From NCBI GenBank assembly GCA_029859505.1, contig JAOUCZ010000010.1, positions 1 to 38,450 of the forward strand: DNA of 38,450 bases. Direction: 5' to 3'. Below are positions 9,977 through 17,429 of the stretch, in pieces (position 1 is the first letter of the stretch; every line of letters starts with the position of its first letter). Below the pieces are notes generated by a model that had not been told where the DNA came from, did no database searches, and worked only from the letters and a program-made list of their open reading frames with translations. Source of the stretch: Lysobacterales bacterium. Its GTDB lineage: Bacteria > Pseudomonadota > Gammaproteobacteria > Xanthomonadales > SZUA-36. A program made the translations under genes and the position numbers.

Positions 9977-12900
9977 TTGCGTCTTATAAGGGAGCTATTG
10001 ACCCAGATCATTGTTGCATTCAGGCACCGTGCATATAGTGACGCGCAATTGAAGAGTATGGGCGTCATGAAATTCGCCGCATCACTGATCAGGCATTCAA
10101 AAATGGTTTTCGCCGGTACTCCATCCGGTCCATTGTGCGTGAGCACAGAAAGACAAAAATCAAATCTGCAAGAAGGTTGGGTGATAGCCAACCATATCCT
10201 TGTTTCCTTCCACGTGGCATTTATATCCTCGGTTCTGGCGATCCCTGAAACTGCAGCGAGTAAGGCTGAGGTATTACGTTTTATATTTATTAGTCCGGAA
10301 ACCATTATTTCCGCCATTTTTACCTACCTGGTCTTCCACTCAGCTATCTCGCTCCATGAATTGGGTCATTTCCTGGAAGCAGCACGTTTGCGGGCGCTCA
10401 GTGACTCAATCCAGGACTCCGTAGAAGCCCGGCTCGCCGCACCCAAAAAGGCGCGCTGGCTCTATCTGCTTAAGCTGTTTATCCGCATACCCTTTGGGCT
10501 AGCGGTGGGAATCAAACGTGAAGGACTGAATTACTACCCCGATGCACCTTATAACCTGGCCGTCGCCGCCGCCGGCCCGCGTGCCAGCTTCAAGGTTGCC
10601 AGGGTGGCTTTGCCGGTGGCTCTGATCCTGCTGGCGACCGGTCTTCTGCAAGATCAGTCTCTCGCGCTCAACCTCGGTCGCTTATTACTGGGACTGGGTA
10701 TAGTGACCGGTCTCGATTTTCTGTTGGCAGACCCCGGTAAATACCGTGAATTCCGCCGGCGCGAGCAACGTGCTAGCCAGGCCTCTGCCAGCCTCCCGGA
10801 AGCCACCGGCTGGGCCGCTAAAGCCGCTTCTGTGAAAAATCGAATCGTTGAACGCAGCATGCAGGAAGCCACCCATCCACGCCTGGGTACCGTCAGGGCA
10901 CCCTGGCAATTTCGTAACTGCGGTATGGGTGGACGGCATACTGAGAAGGAATATCCGGAATCGAACATCAGTATGCAGGAAGCCATGTTCCTGATCCTGG
11001 GTGCAGTGGATTCACAGGAAGCACAGGAGATGACCGTGCGCCTGCAGAATCGACTCAAGGAAATCCTGGAAAAAGCAGAAGGTTGCCGGGTCATGGGTAT
11101 TGGGCTTGAAGGCGGGCTTGCTCCTTATGTAGATCGCGGTGACTACGAATTACCCGAACTGCGACTTTGGGCCATGATGAAACAAACCATCAAAGAGTGT
11201 GGTTTCCGGCCTGGCATCGATGTAGCTATCGCACTCGACCCTGCCCTGTCCGAATTGGAAATTGCCTACCGGGAAGAATTCGACGTGCCAGACAGTATCG
11301 GCATGTACCTGTTCTGGCGTGATCACTCCAAGAAGGTTCTGGACCGTGATGCAGTACTGGCCATCTATGAAAAAGCGATTTTTGACTATGACATTCCAAT
11401 TTTGTCGATCGAAGACGGTTTTTCCGAAGACGATACGGAAGGCTGGTACAAGTTACTCAATAAACTGGGCGACCGTGTACTTGTTGTGGGTGATGACCTG
11501 GTCACGACCAACGACCGAACCATTGAAATAGCTGCCTCAAAGGGGCTGATAAACTCCGTACTGGTGAAGGCAAATCAGATCGGATCCTTATACGAAACAC
11601 TGCTGGCAGTTCTGGTGACCCTCGGCAAAGACCTTAACCTGATCATATCGCATCGTTCAAAAAGTCCGAATGATGATATGGAGGCGCACATTGCACTGGC
11701 AACCAATGCACTGGGTCTCAAAGCAGGTGGTGGCGCCAATACCGAGCGCCTGGTCAAATACCAGGCGGTTACCACCCAGATGGAACGAATCCTGGAGCAG
11801 AATGTTCGGGAACCTGATTTACCCGGGTTTGCCATGGTCGAGCGTCTGCGGGCGCGGGAAGAACCGACTAACGCGGGCATTCCCACGGTGGGTGTTGACG
11901 TTCAATTGGCCCTGCCAGGTGCAGAACCCGAGAGTCGCGTACGTTTGTCCTTTCACGGAGCCACACCGCTTGGCACCTCATCAGGCACGGGTGAGGCGGT
12001 GCACCTGGTTGATGCTGTTTTTGAGCGTGCCGAATACCTGGAAGTAGTTGAAGAAAACCTGAAGTTCCTGCAGGAAGTGGAACCAGGTGTGTTTACTTTC
12101 AAACCCGACGTAATACGCTCACAGATCGAATCAACCGGTGACAAGGCCCTGCTGCAATTATTTAAGCGAAGCGGGCGTTATTATGGCAAAGGCTGTCTGA
12201 ATGCCGTCGATCACGTGCATGAATTTGTCGCACCCTTATTCGAACAAAAAAACGTTGCCGACTGGAGCCTCTTCGATATTGACCGTGCACTCTTAAATCT
12301 CGAGTTATCGACTGCAATACGTCGCGGAAAGCACGACAATGATACGGATACCGAAACTGAAATACGCGTAATGCAACGCAAACAAAACCTGGGCATGAAC
12401 GGAATTCTTTCTGTTTCCCTTGCTATGGCCCGCGGTATCGCTCATGTGCGTGGACAGGAACTCTATGAGTTTTTACGCGAGGAAATGTTGGTTATCATTG
12501 AACATTTGGCCGGTGCACATCATGTTGCCATCCGGGGCAGTCGCTATGAAGACTACGTGGCAGCACTGCAGGAAGTCAACACGCTGCTTGAAGCACAAAA
12601 TTTACCGCTTTATGGAGCCTTGCGAAAATTGACCGGAATTTATAACTGCCAGAATGAGGCCAGCCCCTTGCCTGCACCTTTCATCACAAACCTGACCATT
12701 GTCCCTGGCGAAGCAGCTTCATTTGATTCAAAGGAACAAGCGTCTATCAGCAGTCTGAACACCGCCCTGGTGAATGCCTATCTCACTCCTGCAAGCGAAC
12801 AGGATCACAAGCTTGATCTCAAGATTGCCTTACGCCGCTACCTGGAAACGATGACCCTGCTTGGTCGTCGTTACCGGATGTTCGAGATTGCCAATCACCG

Positions 12901-15900
12901 GTTCTTTAAGGTAGACAACACCCTGATCATACCCTTCGACGCGCACGGCAGCTTATCAATCTACGCTGTGCGCAGGGATTCGGAAGAGGTCATCAGGCAG
13001 GTTCTCCTGCCCCACGGTACATTGATTACCGATGCCCTGATCGCAGAGCTGTCCGGTTTCAAGGGTTCGGTCATCGATCTTGAGCGCGAAATTTATCATT
13101 TGCATGTCGATGACATGCCCACCATTCAGGTTGCCCGACTGCGTGACCTGGCTGGTCTGTTAAGACGTCTGAATAATTGTGGCAGTCGACATGAAGCAGT
13201 GTATGTTTTGCGATTTCTTGTGGCACGTCTTTGCAGCAGTTCATACCGCGGCATGCCCGGGGCCAAGAACCTTAAGTCCGAAATCATCCGTGTACGCCAG
13301 GAGTTGGCTGAGTTTATGAACGGCCCCTTTGCCGAACGTTTACGTCTGCCAACCAGTATCCTGGTACGCAGTATTTCGGGACTCGTGTCTCAGCCGAAAC
13401 TGATCGATGAAGTCTGGCAGGACACCATCGATCTTTCCGAAGTACACGTGCGCGGCAGTGCGATCACCAATGAGATTCGCAGGAGCACCCACCATGCCAT
13501 GGGCAAACACACCCTCAAACTGGCACGCGCATACCTTCAATGGCTTGAGACGGGTGAGGCAGAGTTCCCGGAACCTGAACGTGAAATTGCTGGACCCGCA
13601 GATGAGGCCGCGCGTTCAAACCCGGTCGTATCGGATCTTGTGAAACGTATCATTTCAAACCTCGAGCAACTCCTGGGAAGTGCACAGTTAGCCAGGCGAA
13701 TCGACGAATGGCGTGAAACTTATGCAAATGAGCTTCAGCGTTGTGAATCAACCAATACACTGGAAGAAGAGCTTGAGTCACTGGTAAGTAAAGGCATACA
13801 TGCCAATAACCAGTGGGTGTACCAACATCGCCTGCGCAGCCTGGTAAGCAAGCTACGCGATGGTGAGTGGGGCACCCAGGCCGGTGAGCCGTTTGAGGCG
13901 GCATTACAGCGATTACAGGAAGCACGGCCGTCTGATGAATCTTTCGAGCCTGACAAAGCAGAGGAAGAAGCACGCGATGCGGTTAATACCTTCTGCTCAA
14001 GTATTCGACATGATTACCAGGACTCCCTTTTCCTGGCCCTTGATGAATTGCTCGGGTTTTATCACGGTGGTAATCAGTTTGATGCCTTTGCACGCAGTTG
14101 CAGTCTTCGCCGGGAGCTTGAATCACTGGCCGGCAACGGCGTATTCCCCACCCAGCGTTACCTTTTACACCAGCTTGACTGCATTTTGGAGGAACTGGGG
14201 TTCTTCGCACTGAGACACGTTGCCTCGGACTACATGGAAAATGGCATCAGGCTGGCAGAGTGTCTGTCCATCGTCCACCTGTGTGCCGGCAACCTCGATC
14301 GCGATGGTCTGTTCTCACGGGAACTATGGGATTTATCTGCCATGTTGGTTAATCCGTCGCGCAGTTCATCCGAGTTACTGGATGTGCTCGAACAAATTCA
14401 ACGCAACTACCATCGACTTGTTCACCGGGTCAGCAATGCATACGAAGTGATGGCAGAACACCTGGGTTATGGAACTGAGGAAATGCGTGCAGTTTTAGCC
14501 AATTTCCAGCGCACCATGCATGACCTGAACAGCCTGGTGCATTTCTCCGACCTGGCACGTACGTTCCTGTCGGAAAGTGACCGGGACAACAGTCAACCGG
14601 AAGCGGGCGGCACAGGTGTGGATCCCTGGGATTTCGTCCACTTGTCACACACCTATGACATAAGGCGTCGTGTCGAAAACAGGCAAGCCGCAAGTTTGCA
14701 GGCTCGCTACGGCGGTAAGGGTAGTGGCTTGATTTACATCGCATATTTAGGCATTCCTACACGCGACGGTTTTATTATCCCAACCGTCCTGCCACGTCTG
14801 GATCTGCACAAGCACGAGCAACAGAAACTCGAACAGGAAGTATTGCAGCATCTTCGAATACTTGAAAAAGATATAGAAACCAACGAGGGCCAAAACCTTG
14901 GTCTCGGTAACCCCGATGCGCCCTTGCTGCTCGCGGTTCGAGGCGGCTCGGTATTTTCAATGCCGGGTATGCTGGCAACGATGGTCTTTGTTGGCATGAC
15001 CGATGCCATCGCTGAGTCCCTGGCACGAGAGGACGATTGGTATGCCTGGGATGCGTACCGGCGCTTCCTTGTGTCTTTTTCCGCAGCGGTCTGGGACCTT
15101 GACATAGAGGCGCTTGACCTGGTTGAAAAAGCCAAGCGGCGTCATGGCGTCACGCTCAAGACCGATTTGAGCGGCGGTGAGATGCGTGAGGTGGTTGAAG
15201 CCACCAAAGATGCCATTCGACAAGCGGGTCATGCCGAACAACTCGACTCGATACTCAACGATGCTGAGCTTCAGCTACAGACTGCCGTGCGTGCAGTGCA
15301 TGCATCCTGGGACCGGAACCGAGCAAGGCAATATCGTGCCATTAAACACCTGAGCGAAGGCTGGCATACTGCTGTTATCGTGCAACAAATGGCTTCGGGC
15401 AATCGTATCAACCAACAGGAACTTAAACCGGGCATCGACGAGATGGGTATTTCTCTGACCGGTGTTATTCCCAATACGCGCATGAAAACCACCGGCTTCC
15501 GGGAGTTCACCGGCGATATCAAGTTCAGTGCATGCGGTGATGACCTGGTGGGTGGCATCACGGCGGCAAAGTCCTTTGAGCCGGTGCAACGATTGCACAT
15601 CCTGGCGCCCATGCTGGAACGCAAACTCAATCATGCAGGTGCCCGCCTGCGGCGTTACCTGGGTTCGGACGCAGAGATTGAATTCACAGTTGACCGGGGC
15701 GTATTGAGTGTCCTGCAAGCACGCAGTGCCCAGATGAATCACCGCTTCAGTCCCAAAACCTTCGATAAACCTGGAACTCCCTCAGGGCGTGGTATCGGTA
15801 TTAGCGGCACGGCTTTTCGTGGCCGCGTTGCTTTCAATGAAGCTGATGTGGAACGCCTGAGAAACTTGCCGGACGAAGACAACGACGATTCGGATGGTAT

Positions 15901-16216
15901 TTTACTGGTACTGGAGAACCCGGTTCCTGATGAAATTCCCCTGATACTTTCGGTTAATGGCCTATTGGCCGCTCGTGGCGGCTCAACCTCCCATGCGGCG
16001 GTCTGCGTACACGGCATTGAAGACCAGCCGTACACTGCGGTATTAGGTGTATCGGAACTTCGGGTGAGTGAAAACGGAGCCACGCTGATGGGGGCTGATG
16101 ATCAAATTGAACATACCATCTGCACAGGAGATATACTATCCATCCACGGACAGACCGGTGACGTATTCGCAGGTTCACGACGTCTACTCAGCATAAAGCA
16201 AAAAAAAGCGACTTAA
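9977..16216 (+). CDS. Giant multidomain protein: M50-like membrane peptidase segment + circularly permuted enolase + orphan middle region + PPDK/PEP synthase ATP-grasp domain + phospho-His swivel domain
   Basis: Uninterrupted 2079-codon ORF; listed start is TTG at 9977, in-frame ATGs at 10058 and 10067 are alternatives. HELGH; MQEAM/GLEGGLAP/SIEDGF/GDDL/VKANQIGS/SHRS/LKAGG (enolase barrel); GIPTVGVDV...PLGTSSGTGEA...YGKG...NGILSVSLAMA (enolase capping domain); GGKG, VRGGSVFSMPGM, EFTVDRGVLSVLQAR (PPDK ATP-grasp); ARGGSTSHAAV (His domain). Confidence 0.9.
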   Translation: MRLIRELLTQIIVAFRHRAYSDAQLKSMGVMKFAASLIRHSKMVFAGTPSGPLCVSTERQKSNLQEGWVIANHILVSFHVAFISSVLAIPETAASKAEVLRFIFISPETIISAIFTYLVFHSAISLHELGHFLEAARLRALSDSIQDSVEARLAAPKKARWLYLLKLFIRIPFGLAVGIKREGLNYYPDAPYNLAVAAAGPRASFKVARVALPVALILLATGLLQDQSLALNLGRLLLGLGIVTGLDFLLADPGKYREFRRREQRASQASASLPEATGWAAKAASVKNRIVERSMQEATHPRLGTVRAPWQFRNCGMGGRHTEKEYPESNISMQEAMFLILGAVDSQEAQEMTVRLQNRLKEILEKAEGCRVMGIGLEGGLAPYVDRGDYELPELRLWAMMKQTIKECGFRPGIDVAIALDPALSELEIAYREEFDVPDSIGMYLFWRDHSKKVLDRDAVLAIYEKAIFDYDIPILSIEDGFSEDDTEGWYKLLNKLGDRVLVVGDDLVTTNDRTIEIAASKGLINSVLVKANQIGSLYETLLAVLVTLGKDLNLIISHRSKSPNDDMEAHIALATNALGLKAGGGANTERLVKYQAVTTQMERILEQNVREPDLPGFAMVERLRAREEPTNAGIPTVGVDVQLALPGAEPESRVRLSFHGATPLGTSSGTGEAVHLVDAVFERAEYLEVVEENLKFLQEVEPGVFTFKPDVIRSQIESTGDKALLQLFKRSGRYYGKGCLNAVDHVHEFVAPLFEQKNVADWSLFDIDRALLNLELSTAIRRGKHDNDTDTETEIRVMQRKQNLGMNGILSVSLAMARGIAHVRGQELYEFLREEMLVIIEHLAGAHHVAIRGSRYEDYVAALQEVNTLLEAQNLPLYGALRKLTGIYNCQNEASPLPAPFITNLTIVPGEAASFDSKEQASISSLNTALVNAYLTPASEQDHKLDLKIALRRYLETMTLLGRRYRMFEIANHRFFKVDNTLIIPFDAHGSLSIYAVRRDSEEVIRQVLLPHGTLITDALIAELSGFKGSVIDLEREIYHLHVDDMPTIQVARLRDLAGLLRRLNNCGSRHEAVYVLRFLVARLCSSSYRGMPGAKNLKSEIIRVRQELAEFMNGPFAERLRLPTSILVRSISGLVSQPKLIDEVWQDTIDLSEVHVRGSAITNEIRRSTHHAMGKHTLKLARAYLQWLETGEAEFPEPEREIAGPADEAARSNPVVSDLVKRIISNLEQLLGSAQLARRIDEWRETYANELQRCESTNTLEEELESLVSKGIHANNQWVYQHRLRSLVSKLRDGEWGTQAGEPFEAALQRLQEARPSDESFEPDKAEEEARDAVNTFCSSIRHDYQDSLFLALDELLGFYHGGNQFDAFARSCSLRRELESLAGNGVFPTQRYLLHQLDCILEELGFFALRHVASDYMENGIRLAECLSIVHLCAGNLDRDGLFSRELWDLSAMLVNPSRSSSELLDVLEQIQRNYHRLVHRVSNAYEVMAEHLGYGTEEMRAVLANFQRTMHDLNSLVHFSDLARTFLSESDRDNSQPEAGGTGVDPWDFVHLSHTYDIRRRVENRQAASLQARYGGKGSGLIYIAYLGIPTRDGFIIPTVLPRLDLHKHEQQKLEQEVLQHLRILEKDIETNEGQNLGLGNPDAPLLLAVRGGSVFSMPGMLATMVFVGMTDAIAESLAREDDWYAWDAYRRFLVSFSAAVWDLDIEALDLVEKAKRRHGVTLKTDLSGGEMREVVEATKDAIRQAGHAEQLDSILNDAELQLQTAVRAVHASWDRNRARQYRAIKHLSEGWHTAVIVQQMASGNRINQQELKPGIDEMGISLTGVIPNTRMKTTGFREFTGDIKFSACGDDLVGGITAAKSFEPVQRLHILAPMLERKLNHAGARLRRYLGSDAEIEFTVDRGVLSVLQARSAQMNHRFSPKTFDKPGTPSGRGIGISGTAFRGRVAFNEADVERLRNLPDEDNDDSDGILLVLENPVPDEIPLILSVNGLLAARGGSTSHAAVCVHGIEDQPYTAVLGVSELRVSENGATLMGADDQIEHTICTGDILSIHGQTGDVFAGSRRLLSIKQKKAT
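10300..10790 (+). other. Domain: M50/site-2-protease-like membrane segment
   Basis: Hydrophobic helices around HELGH (10355-10369), followed by AAAGPRAS and GLDFLLADPGKYREF, resembling HExxH / AGP / LDG-type M50 motif order. Confidence 0.55.
10873..11800 (+). other. Domain: enolase catalytic (TIM barrel) domain, located N-terminal to its capping domain
   Basis: GGRH, MQEAM (10973-10987), GLEGGLAP (11102-11125), ALDPALSE, SIEDGF (11405-11422), GDDL (11489-11500), VKANQIGS (K at 11567-11569), SHRS (11648-11659), LKAGG (K at 11720-11722). Confidence 0.88.
11876..12486 (+). other. Domain: enolase N-terminal capping domain, located after the barrel (circular permutation)
   Basis: GIPTVGVDVQL ~ GNPTVEVEV; PLGTSSGTGEAVHLVD ~ PSGASTGVHEALEMRD; YYGKGCLNAVDHVHEFVAPLF ~ GKGV.KAV..VN..IAP.L; KQNLGMNGILSVSLAMARGIAHVRGQELYEFL ~ GANAILAVSLA.A.A.A...PLY..I. 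Confidence 0.85.
14690..15747 (+). other. Domain: PPDK / PEP synthase-type ATP-grasp nucleotide-binding domain
   Basis: ARYGGKGSGLIYIAYLGIPTRDGFIIP; PLLLAVRGGSVFSMPGMLATMVFVGMTD; WYAWDAYRRFLVSFSAAV; IEFTVDRGVLSVLQARSAQ. Confidence 0.88.
15775..16110 (+). other. Domain: PEP-utilising enzyme mobile (phospho-histidine swivel) domain
   Basis: GRGIGISGTAFRGRVAFNEADVE...GILLVLENPVPDEIPLILSVNGLLAARGGSTSHAAVCVHG; predicted catalytic His at 15992-15994. Confidence 0.87.
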
Positions 16217-16236: not shown

Positions 16237-17429
16237 ATGAATCCGGGCAATATCACACTACAAACCCGGCGTCTGGCACATAATGTCAAATGGCTGTCTC
16301 TGCAGGAGTTACTGATACGACTCCTGGGTCTCGCGACCGCCATCTATCTCGCCAGGGTTTTAACTCCCACTGCTTTTGAAGAATTAGGCCTGGCTGTTGC
16401 CATGATTGGCATCCTGACAACGCTGGTACAGGCAGGCACCGGATCCCGTGGCACCCGCCTGTCTGCCCTCGACCCCGCATCGATCCCTCAGACCCGCGCA
16501 AGCATCACGGGCTTGAGGGTAACCATCACCCTTATTGTGATGGCCGGACTTATCTCATGTGCACCAACACTTTCACAAACATTCTCATTTTCGGCCAACC
16601 TGCTCATCCTGTGTTCATTTCTATTGCTTCGCCCTGCCCTGGCCGCGCTGCTCGGTTCTGTCTATATACACGGCGCGCTCTTATTATTGGGCTGGTTGAG
16701 CACACCCGCATCGGCCGCTGACTTCCTTGTGGCGCAAAATCTGATGCTGACGATGATCATTTTGTTGCATGTGATCAATAATTCGGCTTTTCCTTCCGCC
16801 AGCAGGCTATTGCCCTGGACTCCGCGATGGCATTGAACCTGGTTGCTGACCTGCTACGCTACTACCTGGTGTTGATTATTCCGGGCATCCTGGTTCTCGC
16901 CCTTTTTGCAGACCAGATTCTTAACCTGCTGTTTGGAGTTGAATATTCAGATTCCGGACCAGTGCTGATGTTACTGCTCACCGCATTACCATTCCTGGCA
17001 GTCAGTGATAGTCTGCAACTGGTGCTCAAGGCAATACCAAAACCAAAAGCTGTGCTGACTGCCCGGATTGTCAGCACCCTGGTACTGCTTGTTATTGCGA
17101 TCTTATCTGTACCCCGTTATGGTGCCCTTGGTGGAGCAGCAGCGGTGGTTGCCGGTGAGGCAGCAGCAATGGTTTTACTTTTCTGGTTGGTTAAACGCAC
17201 TCTTGGGGCCATGCCCTGGAATGCCAGGTGTTATGAAGCAATACTCGCAGGTGTTATAACGGCGCTTGTTCTTGTGCTAACCCAAAGCTGGCCGTTATTG
17301 TTCAGGCTGCCCTTTGCTGCGATAGTCTATATTCTCTCAGCAGGGTTAATGAAGGCGGTTTCAGCCCATGAACTCGGGTCTGTTCCGCATCTAATTTCAG
17401 CGGCGCTTCAAAATGATAAACTGGAATAA
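16237..17429 (+). pseudogene. Oligosaccharide flippase / polysaccharide biosynthesis membrane protein, frameshifted and apparently internally deleted
   Basis: Two adjacent ORFs in different frames (16237-16836 and 16827-17429) read as N- and C-terminal parts of one Wzx-like flippase; frame change near 16798-16806 (FPSASR | QAIALDSAMALNLVADLLRYYLV); N-terminal part lacks the expected central helices. Confidence 0.75.

Follow-up and report, generated by a model that had tools for sequence, protein, structure and literature searches.

The window analysed here, a 38,450-nucleotide stretch of a Lysobacterales bacterium genome, contains a forward-strand reading frame (9977–16216) that is open throughout and encodes a protein, P0001, of 2079 residues counted from a TTG; all features of P0001 described below lie on this strand. 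The start codon is uncertain: TTG at 9977 gives the longest frame, ATG at 10061 or 10070 are also possible, and conservation among relatives starts near 10154. From the N-terminus onward, P0001 comprises a membrane region with an HELGH motif, the TIM barrel and then the capping domain of enolase, a helical region, and ATP-grasp and phosphohistidine domains of the pyruvate phosphate dikinase (PPDK) type. Elsewhere in the window, at 16237–17429, lie two overlapping ORFs, one resembling the beginning of a polysaccharide flippase and the other the end of MurJ; this points to a single flippase gene broken by a frameshift.

Domain order and active site of the enolase

Few enzymes of central metabolism are as conserved as enolase. 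In the canonical order the capping domain is N-terminal and the TIM barrel C-terminal, and we know of no natural circular permutation of this enzyme. The original prediction placed the barrel before the cap in the present reading frame, and this order is confirmed. The barrel, corresponding to the canonical C-terminal domain, occupies 10889–11776 (residues 305–600) and is recognized by Pfam, PDB and Foldseek searches; the cap, corresponding to the canonical N-terminal domain, follows at 11858–12514 (residues 628–846) and carries insertions relative to its canonical counterpart. Pfam reports Enolase_C at residues 317–600 (E 1.4e-46) and then Enolase_N at residues 800–833 (E 1.6e-11), and in sequence searches PDB enolases match the barrel with E values down to 2.3e-41. 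A profile built from 25 canonical capping domains matches residues 621–833 (E 8.5e-15, profile positions 4–134 covered), and a profile-profile comparison of the cap gives 97.9% probability (E 3.9e-13), so that the resemblance of this region to the enolase N-terminal domain is significant by both measures. The family members among the matches listed were also matched by the cap profile at the equivalent place behind the barrel. Neither in P0001 nor in the family members among the matches listed did the profile match before the barrel, where the membrane domain stands instead of a cap. The predicted module limits, 10873–12486, are a little too narrow, with the cap reaching to ~12514. The cut point is the canonical cap/barrel hinge, and the old C-terminal helix is joined to the old first strand.

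The membrane domain and enolase were modelled with AlphaFold2 from 45 sequences of the window and the loci, which gave a confident structure (pLDDT 85.3, pTM 0.83) whose best Foldseek matches in the PDB are enolases. Foldseek aligns in chain order; alignments of ~300 columns gave an rmsd of ~3 Å and many two-domain alignments gave ~17–25 Å, the split expected of a swapped domain order. P0001 scores 209.4 bits against the NCBIfam enolase equivalog TIGR01060, below the cut-off of 300; a single continuous alignment is impossible for a permuted protein.

The residues equivalent to yeast S39, H159, E168, E211, D246, E295, D320, K345, H373, R374, S375 and K396, which the original prediction listed as retained, are all kept. 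In E. coli numbering, which counts Met1, the correspondence is as follows. H321, Q334 and E335 (within 10937–10981) equal H159, Q167 and E168, with an intervening loop five residues longer; the catalytic Glu E378 (11108–11110) equals E209, that is, yeast E211. The Mg ligands D421 (11237–11239), E479 (11411–11413) and D506 (11492–11494), spanning 11237–11494, equal D246, E290 and D317. The span with the base and phosphate site, 11567–11722, holds the base K531 (11567–11569; K342), the phosphate site H559-R560-S561 (11651–11659; H370, R371, S372) and K582 (11720–11722; K393). In the cap, S668 (11978–11980) equals S42, yeast S39. All catalytic, phosphate and Mg residues are invariant across 48 relatives, down to ~48% identity. 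The permuted family thus shares with canonical enolase (TIGR01060; PF03952 + PF00113) both domains, the fold of TIM barrel and cap, and the complete set of active-site and Mg residues; it differs in the reversed order, ~33% identity, the longer H159–Q167 loop, the cap insertions and the membrane domain in front.

A comparison of permuted and canonical enolases identified 64 positions at which both groups have the same fixed residue and 21 at which each group has a different fixed residue, several of these 21 lying beside the active site. The fixed differences include S39→L, A41→T, D165→S, G373-E374-T375→K-S-P and R399→N; the loop after the catalytic SHRS changes from SGETED in canonical to SKSPNDD in permuted proteins, and the S39 loop is also affected. 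Since differences lie beside the active site, the substrate could differ. The residue pattern fits a working enolase-type enzyme with room for altered specificity.

The membrane domain and the PPDK-derived module

The membrane domain (10154–10771, residues 60–265) shows weak Peptidase_M50 matches and long hydrophobic helices in the model. Peptidase_M50 matches 23 of 27 members, all weakly (best E 2.9e-5; 1.6e-4 for the window), and its score of 21.6 bits is below the Pfam cut-off of 27.2; a PDB sequence search with the domain returned no match, solved site-2 proteases (S2P) included. The HELGH metal motif (10355–10369, residues 127–131) sits in a membrane helix by alignment and model; this HExxH has two invariant His residues, and a single sequence carries another residue in place of the Glu. 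Downstream, within the motif LDFLLADPG (10712–10738), D247 and D252 are invariant and offer a candidate third metal ligand. In the first membrane helix, N72, H73 and H79 (10190–10213) are conserved in 43/43 relatives with letters there. The M50/site-2 protease family (PF02163; SpoIVFB, mjS2P) shares with this domain the membrane helices, HExxH, an AGP-type motif and a downstream Asp in the expected order, and also a soluble C-terminal domain, here enolase instead of CBS; the sub-cut-off score and the lack of a sequence match to solved S2P set the two apart. We treat the domain as M50-like and not as a tested family member; it may itself be an active metalloprotease. Charged residues that follow the last helix hint at a cytoplasmic location of the enolase.

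The family occurs in two forms. A short form of ~800–960 residues stops at the cap and occurs in WOR-3/Stahlbacteria, Asgard archaea and Cloacimonadota, and in Omnitrophota inside a giant ORF. The long form, to which the window belongs, has ~2000–2400 residues and consists of the short-form parts followed by a helical region and a PPDK-derived module; at locus L051 its halves are separate adjacent genes, and in the L054 genome they lie on separate contigs. The mainly helical region, specific to the long form, covers 12554–14656 (residues 860–1560) and has no convincing fold match in the PDB. The ATP-grasp nucleotide-binding domain (14669–15751, residues 1565–1925) is identified by Pfam PPDK_N (E 2.3e-12), TIGR01828 (E 8.7e-69), alignment and Foldseek, and keeps in alignment the Lys, Arg, Glu and Gln of the PPDK ATP site (K1581, R1655, E1902, Q1914). 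The phosphohistidine (PEP-utilizers mobile) domain (15779–16171, residues 1935–2065; PF00391, E 2.6e-5) keeps the invariant catalytic His, H2006 (15992–15994).

These two domains with their catalytic residues are what the long form shares with PPDK (TIGR01828; 1kbl); it differs in lacking the C-terminal PEP/pyruvate barrel, in a shortened linker, and in the placement behind enolase and a long helical region. For the barrel, PF02896 found no match in P0001, whose ORF stops after the phosphohistidine domain, and the TIGR01828 score of 232 is below the cut-off of 843. A model of the helical and PPDK half (pLDDT 78.4) matches PPDK 1kbl in Foldseek (E 8.5e-20); beyond PPDK and the related rifampin phosphotransferase, nothing in the PDB was convincing. 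The PPDK-derived part can probably form phosphohistidine from ATP. In genomes of WOR-3, Asgard and Omnitrophota type that carry the short form, the PPDK-derived module is missing; an ancestral PPDK-like module is unsupported, because these genomes show an ordinary PPDK at most, or no match. A conserved partner operon for the long form was sought and not found, the neighbours being common to the closest relatives only. At two gammaproteobacterial loci, the gene immediately downstream of the long form encodes a tandem PPK2 polyphosphate kinase (L028:9106-10623, L029:6881-8428).

Distribution of the family and loss of the canonical enolase

A scan of genome contigs yielded 53 loci with a permuted enolase, in Gammaproteobacteria, Acidobacteriota, Aminicenantes, Myxococcota, Thermodesulfobacteriota, Planctomycetota, Krumholzibacteriota, Gemmatimonadota, Chloroflexota, WOR-3/Stahlbacteria, Cloacimonadota, Omnitrophota and two Asgard archaea. 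Wherever a locus is long enough to reveal the order, membrane domain, barrel and cap come in succession. In a maximum-likelihood tree with 25 canonical enolases, the permuted proteins form one group with 100/100 support, and the branch that joins them to the canonical enolases measures about five changes per site. The permuted proteins share on average 62% identity with one another and the canonical enolases compared share 57%, while identity across the two sets averages 33%. The single fully supported group, the long branch and the low identity between the sets are most simply explained by a permutation that arose once, long ago.

The gene is patchy. Among 399 sampled Pseudomonadota it occurs in the window's own genome only, and its absence from the other 398/398 excludes a gene widespread in that phylum; it is present in 19 of 61 genomes of the window's own family and order, in 2 of 148 in an Asgard sample and in 9 of 100 in a WOR-3-type sample. 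The relatives whose origin is named by their record are metagenome-assembled genomes, which makes the absence of a gene weaker evidence than its presence. Searches of viral contigs found no relatives and plasmids gave just partial PPDK-type matches among the matches listed, leaving a phage or plasmid origin without support; a defence system was also considered and rejected, PADLOC giving no match.

The window's genome also holds an ordinary enolase, as do nearly all long-form genomes. Among 52 further host genomes, a canonical enolase match is absent in eight, mostly with the short form; these eight retain PGK (8/8), a phosphoglycerate-mutase-type metalloenzyme (7/8) and PEP-using enzymes (8/8). 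In the WOR-3-type sample of 100 genomes, with enolase matches sorted by score and frame length, the canonical gene is absent in 6/9 genomes with the permuted gene vs 4/91 without it (Fisher p 1.3e-5, kinship not corrected). The permuted gene adjoins a canonical enolase gene in WOR-3-type loci and two Asgard loci. On the Stahlbacteria contig L062, the permuted enolase gene is followed by the canonical one and then by a gene for a 205-residue protein; L063 is collinear with L062 and lacks the canonical gene with no room left for it, and no other copy was found in the L063 genome. At L060 the canonical enolase is likewise missing from the conserved operon slot. Genomes without the canonical gene are scattered in several places of the family tree beside genomes that keep it, which makes several losses likely.

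The disappearance of the canonical enolase from several genomes that carry the short form indicates that the short form very probably supplies enolase activity and seems to have taken the place of the ordinary enzyme in several lineages. Together with the strict conservation of the active site, this loss supports the catalytic competence that had been proposed for the module; that the long form supplies enolase activity is an extrapolation from an active site identical to that of the short form.

Several further features accompany these genes. A conserved short gene of ~185–205 residues lies behind the enolase genes at the WOR-3/Stahlbacteria loci L060, L062, L063, L064, L065 and L068, with no Pfam match where tested. 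Many canonical enolase matches in the Asgard sample show one in-frame stop, which may be C-terminal read-through only. The Omnitrophota locus carries two polyprotein-like ORFs of 3214 and 1564 residues (L070:751-10392 and L070:10415-15106) with signal-peptide-like starts and strings of metabolic enzymes: the first holds a Glu/Leu-dehydrogenase, whose two domains also appear swapped, the permuted enolase and UDPGP, and the second a phosphoglucomutase; both end in a common 116-residue segment with 80% identity. At L075:9782-11623, just downstream of the permuted enolase, an amino-acid permease is fused to a PTS EIIA domain.

Function of the permuted enolase

On the observed domain order, active-site conservation, monophyly, architecture and co-occurrence with canonical enolase loss, we build the reading that the protein contains a circularly permuted enolase of ancient and single origin, integrated into a membrane protein and most likely active on 2-phosphoglycerate (2-PG) and phosphoenolpyruvate (PEP), at a probability of about 0.72. 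The ancestral chain would have been cut at the natural cap/barrel hinge and its old C-terminus joined to the old N-terminus. With its full active site kept, the permuted enzyme most likely interconverts 2-PG and PEP, and it would do so at the cytoplasmic side of the membrane, to which a site-2-protease-like domain, perhaps itself an active metalloprotease, would anchor it. To the long form, an ATP-driven phosphohistidine module from PPDK, without a PEP barrel of its own, would have been added, and this module probably couples ATP or PEP status to the membrane enolase.

It is unlikely, in our estimate, that the protein is instead a metabolite sensor, in which the permuted enolase binds 2-PG or PEP and mainly controls the site-2-type protease, with turnover secondary or absent. 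The constant fusion to an M50-like domain with a conserved metal motif would suit such a role, as would the canonical enolase held by most host genomes; S2P proteases with soluble C-terminal domains possibly responsive to small molecules are known, SpoIVFB among them, and such domains, for example CBS, may respond to ATP (PMC11486902). However, the acid-base residues needed for catalysis, beyond binding, are invariant, and the canonical enolase has been lost in several genomes with the short form. We hold it to be very unlikely that the family comprises enolase-type lyases acting on another 2-phospho-carboxylate: every residue defining 2-PG chemistry is kept and genomes without canonical enolase still hold the steps on either side of it, against which stand the 21 fixed differences, with the altered phosphate-side and S39 loops, and the very long separating branch. 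A long shot of similar rank concerns the long form, where the enolase barrel could replace the lost PEP barrel of PPDK and the ATP-charged phosphohistidine arm could phosphorylate a substrate (e.g., glycerate or enolate) in the enolase site; one membrane protein would then use ATP to make PEP, and the protease-like domain would control this cycle or be controlled by it. An artefact of chimeric assembly, frameshift or chance similarity, with no true permutation, deserves practically no credence: two draft-contig relatives are frameshifted (L017, L049), yet we found no evidence supporting an artefact, the cap matches are significant in the family members among the matches listed, and the same order recurs in one open frame on dozens of contigs and in more than ten phyla, so the permutation is not the product of one assembly.

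Searches of 5.39 million open full-text papers turned up no description of a permuted enolase (subscription journals and preprints lie mostly outside this coverage), and the permuted enzyme is likely new to the literature. An old permuted enolase that spans many phyla, is tied to the membrane and appears capable of replacing the canonical enzyme would mean that a core fold of glycolysis can survive being re-wired. Genomes scored by standard annotation as lacking enolase may hold a permuted one, and the architecture of the family might directly connect the PEP level, intramembrane proteolysis and phosphohistidine transfer.
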